64,000 nt of DNA. It comes from Planctomycetota bacterium. Lineage in GTDB: Bacteria > Planctomycetota > Planctomycetia > Pirellulales > Pirellulaceae. This document shows, piece by piece, positions 7,638 through 15,725 of the stretch; the stretch's first letter is position 1, and each line of letters opens with the position of its first letter. A program made the translations under genes and the position numbers. Below the pieces are notes generated by a model. The model was not told where the DNA came from. It saw only the letters and a program-made list of their open reading frames with translations, and made no database searches. The stretch spans positions 39,034 through 103,033 of the forward strand of contig JAPOIJ010000001.1 of assembly GCA_029979005.1 (NCBI GenBank). The letters are read 5' to 3'.

Positions 7638-8084
7638 CTATTGAAAGCAACTTAAAAGAAAGATTGCCAATGACAAGATGACAAGAAGGAAAAGTAAGGT
7701 CGGAACCAGATTGCCATTTTGCCCTTTTTCACAAATTAAGAAATCAGATGAAATTAAATTGAGTTTTTCTTGTTGCTCAGCGGGATTCTTAAAAAGCCAA
7801 ATCTGGGTTTTCATACTTTGCGTTCGGATTCGCTCGTCATCTAACGCAACGCCAAATACTTGTTGCCAATCGCGCTCATTCTCCGTGCATTGTTCTTGGT
7901 TGTTTTCGTCGAACGGACGGTATTTGACCCTTGCGCAAAATCTAAAAACCTGAACCCATCCTGGTCTCTGAATGGCGTGGAGTTCCAGTTCTTCAAATTT
8001 GGCGGTCTTTCCAACAAACCCGTTTTGATTCAACCAAGCTCGAACATCGGCTTCAGTGGATCGATTGGAAATAGTTAGTGGCAT
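7638..8084 (-). CDS. Hypothetical tail-anchored protein
   Basis: I do not recognise a family. The 148-residue product has a soluble, charged N-terminal part (1-120) and a single hydrophobic helix at the very end (about 127-146, with VPTLLFLLVILSLAIFLLS), so it is predicted to be anchored by its C-terminus facing the cytoplasm. Two cysteines (in RFCARV and EQCTEN) do not form a known motif. The start ATG at 8084 gives a natural N-terminus. It is transcribed separately from the DUF1499-msrB pair, about 85 bp upstream of it. Confidence 0.6.
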   Translation of the reverse strand: MPLTISNRSTEADVRAWLNQNGFVGKTAKFEELELHAIQRPGWVQVFRFCARVKYRPFDENNQEQCTENERDWQQVFGVALDDERIRTQSMKTQIWLFKNPAEQQEKLNLISSDFLICEKGQNGNLVPTLLFLLVILSLAIFLLSCFQ

Positions 8085-10685: not shown

Positions 10686-13600
10686 TTACTGCCGTGAGCC
10701 GGGAGTGATTTTTAATTCGATCCGTTTGCCGTCCCGGAGGACGGTAATGGATGTTTCTTCTCCAATTTTTATGGCGTCGATAATCGCGGTGTAATCGTAA
10801 ATGTTTTCGATGCTTTTACCAGCAAGTTCGACAATGATATCGCCTCCTTTGATTCCTGCTTTGTCTGCAGGCGCCCCTTTGGTCACATCCGAAAGCTTGA
10901 CACCAACGACGTCTTCGCCATAGGCAGGAACGCTTCCGAGGTAAGCGCGAAGCCCGCCTTTGGGCGCGTCCTGGGGTGTCGAAGATTGTTCGATGTAGTC
11001 GGGAGCCTGATCGGTGGTCGCGAGTGATCTGGTGATGAGTCCCATCAATCGAGCAATCCTTGCAGCGTCGGGATAGTTAAGTTTTTCAGGGGTATCGCGA
11101 GGCGTATGGTAGTCGGTGTGCGATCCTGTAAAGGCGGACAAGATTGGAATACCACCTCGGTAAAACGAACTCGCATCGGTGGGGAGGTCGGTTTCGTTAC
11201 TGAGCGTAACGGGAAGGCCTACGACCGCGTTTTTAGATTCGATAACCGATGGCCAGAAACTACTACTGCTAACGCCTTGCAGGACAAGTTGATCGGTTAA
11301 TCGACCAACCATGTCCATGTTGAGGGCAGCGATAATTCCAGTGCTTGGTCGTGGAGCTCCCTCTCTAGGATCTTTATTGTTGAGCGTGACTTTTTTCACT
11401 CCGAGGCTTTTGACCATTTCAGTCAGCTCGTTGACGGCTTTTCGCTTTGCTTCTGGATGAGCCTCGACTTGAATTTCAAAATCAGGATAGTTTTTGGCGA
11501 TAAACTTTAAAGACTCACTTATTTCGTTAGTTTTTGCAGATTCACCGTTGAGCAAGATTTCCCCTTCAGCATCAACTCCAAGCACGAAGTCATGGGAGGC
11601 ATCCTGAGAGGCGGGAGATTCGGCAGGTTCAAGCGACTTGACATAATTAGCGGAGCCGTAAAGTCCGAGTTCTTCGCCGGACCAACCGGCAAAGATCACG
11701 TCTCGCTTAAGTTTTAGTTTTCCGGTGCGCTGTTGAGCGACCAGATACTCGGCAATTTCCAGCATTGCGGCAACACCTGACGCATTATCATCTGCACCGA
11801 AGTGAATGTTGTTTTGCTCGTCTTGTTTTGCGAGGCTGCTGCCAGATTTGCCGGCCCCGAGGTGGTCAATGTGTGCTCCAACGATTACCGCGTCCTCGCT
11901 TGGGGATTGCCCGGCGAGAAGGCGACCCACGACATTGCGTCCCTTGCCAGTAATTTTTTCAATATCGATTTCTGTTTTGAGCTTGCTCCCCTTAAGGATA
12001 AAACCCATGACCGGCGATCCGTCATCTAATCGATCTTGGAGTTTGTGGATGTCCTTGCCAGCCGCCTGAAGAATTTTTTGTCCGACCTCATCGGAGACAC
12101 TGATCGCGGCGATGCTTGATCCGCTCGGTGAAAAATCATTTCGCAAAGGAACCAGTTGCTCGCGAACCTGAGAATTAGGGCCGCTGACAACGATCACACC
12201 TTTCGCCCCTTGCTGTCTGGCATGGAAAATCTTTTTGTGAAGCTCCGCATGTGTTTTGAAAAAACGCCGTCGCTCAGGGGAGACATTTTCAGGTAGGAAG
12301 CGATACACAAAAACCCATTTATCCTTTACGTCGAGGTGGACGTAAGAGTCATATTCTTCCTCCGAGCCTTGTGGTGGAGCCACGATCCCGTAGCCCGCAA
12401 AGACGATTTCTGTCGGATCAATCTGGAGATTGCCAGAAAACGAAAGCGGTCTCCAGTCCTGGTTGACCTTAAGCGATTCGGATTTCTCCCCAATCGTAAG
12501 CTCCAGTTGGTTCTTCGGTCCCATTTTGACGCCATTAGGAAAGTCGAACGTTTGGAACCAAGTTCCATTGTCACCAGCAGGTTTCAGCCCTAAGTGATCA
12601 AGGTAAGCTGCGACATAAGCAGTTGCTTTGCGTTCGCCGGTTGAGCCCGTCATTCGGCCGCCCAATTCCTTGCGGCAGAGGTAGTCGACATGTCTCATGA
12701 TATCTCTTGGGTCAAAACCGGCACTTGCTTGTTGTGCAGCATTGAGTCCAGTGTCGAATGCTGATTTCTCTTCCGGAGACCATTGGTTGCCCGCCGACTG
12801 GTTTGCCGAAATTGCCTCGGATGCTATCTCGTGATTCCAGTCAGCCAGGTAAATTTGTGATTCCTTTTTGGGATTGCGAGTGGAGGTCCAAGTCAGTTTT
12901 TTTCCGTCGGGTGTAAAGCTTGCAAGTCCATCAAAACCGTCGGTGTCAGTAACGCGTACGGGCGGCGATTTGCCATCAGTGGCTACCAGGTAAAGCTCGA
13001 AGTTTCCAAATCCATGCCGGTTGGTTGTGAAGATCAGGTACTCTCCCGACGGGTGGTAAAACGGTGCCCAACTCATTGCCCCAATGTTAGTGAGTTGTTT
13101 CTGATCGCTCCCATCGATGTTCATGGTCATGATTTCCGCGGTCGCCCCGGATTCTGAAAATCGTCGCCAACAAATACGTTTTCCATCGGGAGAGAAGAAG
13201 GGCCCCCCGTCGTACCCCGGGACATCTGTAAGCTGGCGGACGTTCGTGCCATCGGAATTCATGATGAAAATATCCATCATGTAGGCGGGGTCTGTTTTAA
13301 AGTTCTTTTGTTGTTCGGCAGTTAGTTGCTTAGAATAGCCATTGCGATTGGACGCAAATGCGATCAGTTTTCCATCCGGAGAGTAAGATCCTTCGGCGTC
13401 ATAGCCAAGGTCGTTGGTTAGTTTTTTGTATTCTTTTGAATTGCGATCGTAGGAAAAAATTTCATAGGTTTCATCGTAGTCCCATGAGTAACGTCGGGCT
13501 TGTCCGGATTCCCGAAATTCTATTTCCTCTTTTTGTTTTGCTTTGGCGTTAGGGTCAGCTTGAGTTGAAGCGTAAAGAACAAGATTGTTGTTGGGGTGTA

Positions 13601-13955
13601 CCCACGCGCATGTTGTCTTTCCGTAGCCCGGAGAGATTGGTTCCACGTCACCCGATTCAAAATCAAGTAAGTAAATTTGGAAAAAGGGATTGTCGATTCG
13701 TCGCTCACTTTGAAACGCAAGTAACGTTCCGTCAGGACTGAAATAACCTTCGCCCGCCCGTTTGCCTTCAAAAGTCAGTTGCCGGGCATTGGAAATAAAC
13801 TTGATTTCCTGACCGCCATTTGTTTCAGAGGGATCAGCGTTCGGTTCTTGTGCTGCTACGGGACAGCAGGCGAAGAAACTGAGGCTGAGTAGTCCGGTCA
13901 GGGCGAAAGCGAAAATGGATTGTTGATTCGCAATGGGGCGAATTAAAGTGAACAT
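10686..13955 (-). CDS. Secreted M28 metallopeptidase with TolB-like propeller, PA, ExbD-like insert and PDZ domain
   Basis: A 1089-residue exported protein. Signal peptide about 1-35. Residues 50-375 are repeated TolB/PD40 beta-propeller blades (YFSPDGTLLAF, YSPDGKLIAF, FFSPDGKRI, FTPDGKKL). The peptidase spans about 415-980 with a PA-type insertion (about 500-660). The zinc and catalytic residues are His695 (GAHIDH), Asp722, Glu761-Glu762 (SGEELG), Asp881 (NMDMVG) and His950 (DYHTP). Residues 788-860 interrupt the peptidase with a segment like ExbD/TolR. A PDZ domain (about 1005-1086, with DKAGIKGGDIIVELAGK) closes the protein. It probably degrades peptides in the periplasm or outside the cell. 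Confidence 0.93.
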   Translation of the reverse strand: MFTLIRPIANQQSIFAFALTGLLSLSFFACCPVAAQEPNADPSETNGGQEIKFISNARQLTFEGKRAGEGYFSPDGTLLAFQSERRIDNPFFQIYLLDFESGDVEPISPGYGKTTCAWVHPNNNLVLYASTQADPNAKAKQKEEIEFRESGQARRYSWDYDETYEIFSYDRNSKEYKKLTNDLGYDAEGSYSPDGKLIAFASNRNGYSKQLTAEQQKNFKTDPAYMMDIFIMNSDGTNVRQLTDVPGYDGGPFFSPDGKRICWRRFSESGATAEIMTMNIDGSDQKQLTNIGAMSWAPFYHPSGEYLIFTTNRHGFGNFELYLVATDGKSPPVRVTDTDGFDGLASFTPDGKKLTWTSTRNPKKESQIYLADWNHEIASEAISANQSAGNQWSPEEKSAFDTGLNAAQQASAGFDPRDIMRHVDYLCRKELGGRMTGSTGERKATAYVAAYLDHLGLKPAGDNGTWFQTFDFPNGVKMGPKNQLELTIGEKSESLKVNQDWRPLSFSGNLQIDPTEIVFAGYGIVAPPQGSEEEYDSYVHLDVKDKWVFVYRFLPENVSPERRRFFKTHAELHKKIFHARQQGAKGVIVVSGPNSQVREQLVPLRNDFSPSGSSIAAISVSDEVGQKILQAAGKDIHKLQDRLDDGSPVMGFILKGSKLKTEIDIEKITGKGRNVVGRLLAGQSPSEDAVIVGAHIDHLGAGKSGSSLAKQDEQNNIHFGADDNASGVAAMLEIAEYLVAQQRTGKLKLKRDVIFAGWSGEELGLYGSANYVKSLEPAESPASQDASHDFVLGVDAEGEILLNGESAKTNEISESLKFIAKNYPDFEIQVEAHPEAKRKAVNELTEMVKSLGVKKVTLNNKDPREGAPRPSTGIIAALNMDMVGRLTDQLVLQGVSSSSFWPSVIESKNAVVGLPVTLSNETDLPTDASSFYRGGIPILSAFTGSHTDYHTPRDTPEKLNYPDAARIARLMGLITRSLATTDQAPDYIEQSSTPQDAPKGGLRAYLGSVPAYGEDVVGVKLSDVTKGAPADKAGIKGGDIIVELAGKSIENIYDYTAIIDAIKIGEETSITVLRDGKRIELKITPGSRQ

Positions 13956-14462: not shown

Positions 14463-15725
14463 ATGATTGCGAATCGAAGCTATGACTGTGTTGTTCTTGG
14501 CGCCGGGCCCGGAGGGTCGTCTGCGGCGGCAATCGTAGCGGAACAGGGATTGTCGGTTTTGCTCGTCGAGCGCGACAAGATGCCCCGATTCCATGTCGGC
14601 GAGTCATTGATGCCCGAGACTTACTGGGTGTTTGAGAGGCTGGGAATTGTTAACGAACTGGATCGAATTGGCTTCACGAGAAAGTACGGTGTTCAGTTCG
14701 TTAGTAGTAACGATCGTGAGACAAAGCCATTTGTGTTCGCTGAGCATGACCCAAGGCCATGCAACGAGACTTGGCACGTCGATCGAGCCAAGTTTGATCA
14801 CTTGCTTTTTGAGACAGCATTCAATCGGGGAGCGACCTGTGTTGATGGGACTCGTGTTTTAGATATTGACATTCGGAACAAATCGCCGCACCTGGTTACA
14901 CTTCAGGGGGAGGACGGCAAGCAGCAGGAGATTTCCGGCAAGGTAATCATCGACGCGTCGGGTCAGTCTTCTCTTCTCGCTAACCGTTTGCAGACGAAAG
15001 AGTATTACGAAGATTTACGTAAGGCGGCGATCTGGGGTTATTATGACGGTGCCGTGCGTGCGGGCGGTGGTAATGCAGAGGTTACCTGTATTCTTCATAC
15101 AAAAAGTAAGGACGCCTGGTTTTGGTATATCCCGCTAAGCGATGGCACGGTTAGCGTTGGACTGGTTGGCGACAATGATTTCTTGCTGAAGCGGGGAGGA
15201 TCGCCAGCCAAGACCTTTGAAACGGAGATCAACAACTGCCCGGGAGTTAAGCGTCGTCTAATGGATGCGAAACTTCGCGGTAAGTTTGCGGTTGCCAAGG
15301 AATTTTCTTACACCGTCAAAGAACAGGCTGGTGATGGATGGGTTCTTGTCGGCGATGCTGGTGGCTTTATCGATCCTTGTTATTCTTCGGGAGTTTTCCT
15401 TGCGTTGAAATCTGGGGTGATGGCAGGCGAGGCCGTAGCTGAGGGTCTACACGCAGGTGATACGTCCGCAAAACAACTGGGGAAGTGGACGCGAGAGTAC
15501 GAGTCGGGAGTAAAGTGGATACGAAAACTGGTTCGTGCTTTTTATACGAAAGAGTTCAGCTTTGGGTCTTTCATGAAGGCACACCCAGAGCATGCGAAAA
15601 ACGTTACCAATCTTCTAATTGGGCGTGTTTTCGAGGGGAATCCCGGTAAAGTCTTTGAAGATATGGATCCCTGGATTGAAAAGGCAAAACGCGGAGAAGA
15701 CATGGAGATGGCGGCGAGTAATTAG
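14463..15725 (+). CDS. FAD-dependent oxidoreductase, tryptophan-halogenase-like
   Basis: A 420-residue flavoprotein of the halogenase/geranylgeranyl-reductase superfamily. The FAD-binding Rossmann loop GAGPGG is at 13-18, followed by LVERDKMPRFHVGESL (34-49). The second FAD motif is WVLVGDAGGFIDP near 292-304. Residues 219-224 read WFWYIP, fitting the WxWxIP signature of flavin-dependent halogenases, which prevents mono-oxygenation. It could therefore chlorinate or brominate a substrate, but no biosynthetic cluster or flavin reductase lies beside it, so a hydroxylase or reductase role remains possible. Confidence 0.85.
   Translation: MIANRSYDCVVLGAGPGGSSAAAIVAEQGLSVLLVERDKMPRFHVGESLMPETYWVFERLGIVNELDRIGFTRKYGVQFVSSNDRETKPFVFAEHDPRPCNETWHVDRAKFDHLLFETAFNRGATCVDGTRVLDIDIRNKSPHLVTLQGEDGKQQEISGKVIIDASGQSSLLANRLQTKEYYEDLRKAAIWGYYDGAVRAGGGNAEVTCILHTKSKDAWFWYIPLSDGTVSVGLVGDNDFLLKRGGSPAKTFETEINNCPGVKRRLMDAKLRGKFAVAKEFSYTVKEQAGDGWVLVGDAGGFIDPCYSSGVFLALKSGVMAGEAVAEGLHAGDTSAKQLGKWTREYESGVKWIRKLVRAFYTKEFSFGSFMKAHPEHAKNVTNLLIGRVFEGNPGKVFEDMDPWIEKAKRGEDMEMAASN

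Follow-up and report, generated by a model that had tools for sequence, protein, structure and literature searches.

An ExbD/TolR-type domain inserted in a secreted M28 peptidase of Pirellulaceae

ExbD and TolR are components of proton-driven envelope motors, and one gene of a Planctomycetota bacterium raises the question of what a segment resembling them could be doing in the middle of a secreted peptidase. The gene lies in a 64,000-nt stretch of DNA, referred to here as the window, taken from contig JAPOIJ010000001.1 of assembly GCA_029979005.1 (Pirellulaceae). According to the list of open reading frames, its translation and the Pfam matches, the gene (10686..13955, minus strand) encodes a PD40-M28-PA-PDZ protein of 1089 residues, which starts with a signal peptide and is secreted. 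The Pfam matches are PD40 (7e-39), Peptidase_M28 (9e-36, split into two stretches), PA (2.3e-5), and PDZ_2 (1e-9). Five PD40 repeats make up an N-terminal, TolB-like beta-propeller (about residues 50-369; 12849..13808, minus strand), which matches the TolB model TIGR02800 at 8e-39, yet far under the cut-off of that model. The C-terminal PDZ domain (about residues 1012-1088; 10692..10922, minus strand) is recognized by both PDZ_2 and PDZ_6.

The catalytic domain itself looks intact. The alignment places the motif SGEELG, with the catalytic and metal-ligand Glu 761/762, at residues 759-764 (11664..11681, minus strand) and the motif NMDMVG, with the metal-ligand Asp 881, at residues 879-884 (11304..11321, minus strand). 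These two Glu and the Asp do not vary in any of the 65 homologues aligned or of the 24 sequences from the genus, and the whole set of metal and catalytic residues (H695, D723, E761, E762, D881, and H950) is invariant in the latter. The model of the domain has an aminopeptidase fold, its best Foldseek matches being M28 aminopeptidases (E down to 7e-28), and the host peptidase is apparently active, judging from its catalytic residues. With the M28 family (PF04389; 2ek8, 6hc6, 8ac9, and glutamate carboxypeptidase II) it shares the catalytic domain, the PA insertion, all metal ligands, and the catalytic Glu. It differs from the family by the PD40 propeller and PDZ domain fused at its ends and by the ExbD-type domain added between the Glu-Glu and Asp ligand motifs. 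A link to the Tol-Pal system through the TolB-like propeller was considered and set aside, because the propeller is common to the whole family, with or without the insert.

A first-pass annotation of the window had placed an ExbD/TolR-like segment at 11376-11594 on the minus strand, i.e. residues 788-860, between SGEELG (759) and NMDMVG (879), and this assignment is borne out by several comparisons. We delimit the core domain as the 74 residues 788-861 (HDF...VTL; 11373..11594, minus strand), flanked by an N-terminal linker of residues 776-787 (11595..11630) and a C-terminal linker of residues 862-873 (11337..11372), both on the same strand. The annotation had named PF02472 as the family concerned; this profile matches residues 778-861 of the whole host protein at E 2.4e-4, with 21.6 bits under the cut-off of 25.4, and the segment alone at E 6.8e-6, with 26.6 bits over it. 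An ExbD search of the bacterium's own genome lists the insert site at 25.3-25.8 bits, over the cut-off. In an alignment of the window's insert with those of 15 relatives, all 16 rows match PF02472 (best E 9.8e-10), and hhalign comparison with ten canonical ExbDs gives a probability of 98.6% over 82 columns (E 1.2e-15). Against the PDB, phmmer with the single insert segment found no relevant match, and the profile of the insert alignment found ExbD at weak E values (0.026-0.07). Run against 241 genomes of the family, the insert profile retrieves, within the window's genus, the peptidases that carry the insert and, outside it, open frames mostly of 140-200 residues (E down to about 1e-9). Nine of these frames were read, and they are canonical ExbDs with a NLTPMIDVVFLL-type membrane helix. 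Canonical ExbDs are likewise retrieved across the phylum, in a set of 392 genomes spread over it.

The predicted structure points the same way. The AlphaFold2 model of the insert alone (pLDDT 84.3) has the element order E E H E H E (beta-beta-alpha-beta-alpha-beta), the ExbD/TolR alpha/beta fold that the annotation's proposal implied. In a Foldseek search of the PDB with this model, ranks 1-6 are all ExbD/TolR periplasmic domains (8pek, 8p9r chains A and B, 8vgc, 8vgd, and 5by4; TM (target) 0.57-0.76), and 2pfu and 2jwk follow at lower ranks. Since profile searches, hhalign, the AlphaFold2 fold, and the Foldseek matches agree, the identification stands, and the insert is almost certainly a periplasmic domain of the ExbD/TolR type.

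A second model, covering residues 405-1000 (pLDDT 88.1, and 84-93 within the insert block), puts the insertion point between helix 766-774 and strand 874-881, which ends in the metal-ligand Asp. Both linkers are poorly predicted, with low pLDDT at model residues 375-384 (residues 779-788 of the protein) and lower values at about 461-470. In parallel alpha/beta folds, helix-to-strand loops sit at the end of the sheet opposite the active site. From this order of secondary-structure elements, the insert is expected on the far side of the catalytic domain, as seen from the active site. A role as a direct lid looks unlikely, because the loop runs into the N terminus of strand 874-881, at whose other end the metal-ligand Asp lies.

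Compared with ExbD/TolR proteins (PF02472; 8pek, 8p9r, 8vgc, 2pfu, 5by4, and 2jwk), the insert shares the fold, the order of elements, and the length of the core, together with the signatures VDxxGxIxLNG and G(V/I)xx(V/I)xL. It differs from them in being embedded in an enzyme, in its own HDF and P-x-F residues, and in lacking the post-membrane linker as well as the N-terminal transmembrane helix with its proton-carrying Asp. Positions 1-40 of the PF02472 profile are indeed unmatched, and only the short variable linker 776-787 precedes the core. Without a membrane helix, the insert alone cannot work as part of a proton-driven motor. Another difference concerns the R-x-D motif after strand 3. 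An alignment of ten canonical ExbDs shows its Arg to be invariant and its Asp nearly so. The motif is nearly always replaced in the inserts (E-A-H in the window), and its Arg is kept only by L164 (V-R-A-H) and L167 (I-R-L-D); a pattern match in L159 lies elsewhere in the sequence and not in this loop.

The segment is foreign to a normal M28 domain, since homologues of the peptidase hold short or low-complexity loops at the same site. The loop, motifs included, is about 35-41 residues long in many acidobacterial, hydrogenedentote, and phycisphaeral homologues, and in others it is of low complexity, acidic or His-rich, the site being hypervariable across the family. Planctomycete PD40-M28-PA-PDZ proteins without the insert (L021-L098) have the same domain order as the host and about 47-60% identity to it over the full length, but unlike in the host, their loop is short, of low complexity or His-rich, or an unrelated helical segment. 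In the planctomycete proteins L045, L088, and L031, the loop is filled by repeats rich in His (NPHA or DPHAKA, for example), which are perhaps metal-binding. The sister clade of the insert-bearing proteins (L171, L172, L174, and L019) has, between SGEELG and NMDMVG, an unrelated insert of about 100 residues that is probably helical and for which no Pfam family exceeds its cut-off (best 0.0073). Both types of insert start with H-D after a variable linker, the sister-clade type with P-H-D. Kinship between the two was considered and rejected, at an hhalign probability of 0.6%.

Searches with the insert profile and the peptidase found the insert in an M28 protein of 21 of the 28 genomes of the window's genus (in G305 as a fragment). 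Among the other seven genomes, three have the helical insert (L171, L172, and L174), a short loop is present in one (L175), the orthologue ends before the site in another (L173), and two are without a close orthologue (G299 and G303). No insert-bearing M28 protein was found outside the genus among the 241 family genomes and the 392 genomes across the phylum. As the hosts are mostly metagenome assemblies, one might suspect a fragment of an ExbD gene wrongly joined to the peptidase gene during assembly or gene calling. This explanation was rejected, with practically no chance left to it, because architecture and frame are identical in the 21 genomes, including one that is a single 6.6-Mb contig (G288).

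In a tree from which the loop was left out, one clade (SH-aLRT 99) unites the 20 insert-bearing proteins included with the short-loop L175, and the helical-insert proteins are sister to it. The presence of the insert requires two state changes on this tree, most simply one gain and one loss (L175/L046). A gene for an FAD oxidoreductase of the tryptophan halogenase type, located at 14463-15725 (plus strand) in the window by a Pfam scan of the neighbours, is next to the peptidase gene in almost every insert-bearing locus whose flank is long enough, and likewise in L046, which lost the insert, and L019, which has the helical one. The peptidases of all these loci are therefore orthologues. An AI-2E permease is usually part of the conserved synteny, for L046 and L019 as well. 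In the window, the minus strand also encodes, at 7638-8084, a small protein that matches SAM_3 marginally (22.5 bits, cut-off 22.6) and has a C-terminal hydrophobic stretch. The Pfam scan of the eight neighbour genes of the peptidase found no ExbB/TolQ. The window's genome (G000) contains eight other ExbD-family genes on contigs C96, C173, and C202; six of these form three pairs of neighbouring genes.

The insert core has a dN/dS of 0.12 in a set of eight close relatives. Its N- and C-terminal linkers reach 0.32 and 0.29, and values of 0.01-0.03 were obtained for the host domains (catalytic, PA, propeller, and PDZ). Mean pairwise identity is 41% for the inserts versus 73-80% for the host domains; all 19 inserts compared share H788, F790, N803, and F826, and D/E789 is invariant or nearly so. 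The insert is thus under purifying selection, weaker than that on its host, and the dN/dS and identity figures describe a domain that is maintained yet fast-evolving.

We propose that an ancestor within the genus, a Mariniblastus-like member of the Pirellulaceae, captured an ExbD/TolR core once, without the transmembrane helix and the N- and C-terminal extensions. The recipient site would have been a helix-to-strand loop that tolerates insertions, in a secreted zinc peptidase of PD40-M28-PA-PDZ architecture that is apparently active. There the core would take no part in proton-driven work and would form a passive accessory module on the enzyme's surface, remote from the active site, most likely offering an envelope partner a surface for docking or spacing. 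To this explanation as a whole we give an even chance, and the docking or spacing role in particular is favoured only tentatively. The faster divergence of the insert (41% against 73-80% identity), its loss in L175, and the arbitrary low-complexity loops of relatives would also fit a passenger without a role of its own, an ExbD core kept in a tolerant loop as a compact and harmless plug. Such a neutral or structural passenger is a close rival and quite possible, given that the site is hypervariable across the family, with His-rich repeats and an unrelated helical insert, that the insert was lost once, and that its dN/dS is about 4-11 times that of the host domains. A mere plug is harder to reconcile with the ExbD family match, which persists among inserts down to 20% pairwise identity, with the near-invariance of H788, D/E789, F790, N803, and F826, and with a dN/dS well below neutral and below that of the insert's own linkers.

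More specific roles can be drawn from the motors, and the first-pass annotation had suggested that the segment might tether or regulate the peptidase, the corresponding region of ExbD/TolR sensing peptidoglycan or partner proteins. TolR(60-133) has a cryptic peptidoglycan-binding activity that becomes evident only after removal of the swapped segments at both termini (PMC4646322). Because the insert resembles this truncated core, in its length, in the lack of flanking extensions, and in its Foldseek matches to TolR 5by4 and 2jwk, it could by analogy hold the peptidase at the cell wall. Such a tether appears improbable, as the binding by TolR(60-133) is credited to a dimer groove, and few inserts keep the R-x-D loop, which adjoins the dimer contact of ExbD. 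The insert might also capture a partner by recruiting a beta-strand, tying the peptidase to Ton/Tol-type machinery, in the way that ExbD captures the D-box of TonB through the strand containing Leu-132 (PMC10907165). Most inserts have a hydrophobic residue at the position aligned with Leu-132 (Leu itself in the window), and the genome has its eight other ExbDs. ExbD protomers contact one another through the loop near R-x-D (PMC10907165), and this dimer-contact loop is not conserved in the inserts. In addition, the genome, which is 92.5% complete, yielded no TonB C-terminal domain, making TonB binding less likely; we judge strand recruitment very improbable. That the captured core is a working targeting module, by which the secreted enzyme docks on the cell wall or on the motor machinery of the envelope, is rather unlikely, but if true it would be a new use of the ExbD/TolR domain outside proton-driven motors.

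The individual parts of this protein are known, and the combination of an ExbD core with an M28 peptidase appears to be new. The literature searched, outside which most subscription journals lie, holds no description of an ExbD-type domain in an M28 peptidase. Another membrane-free ExbD-type domain in the phylum is found in L185 (G585:C14:188000-190200), where a 337-residue frame on the plus strand from base 317 has a lipoprotein-like signal and an ExbD domain (PF02472, E 5.3e-9) without a membrane helix directly before it. Since L185 also carries such a domain, the ExbD/TolR domain may be a general portable module. An ExbD-type core without its anchor, inside a secreted enzyme, shows that the fold is reusable by itself, and the insert provides a natural membrane-free construct for probing what ExbD-type domains bind. 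It also documents a domain insertion for which sister lineages show the site empty or holding an unrelated segment. In the window's genus of marine planctomycetes, the fusion of an ExbD-type domain with a peptidase is real and conserved.
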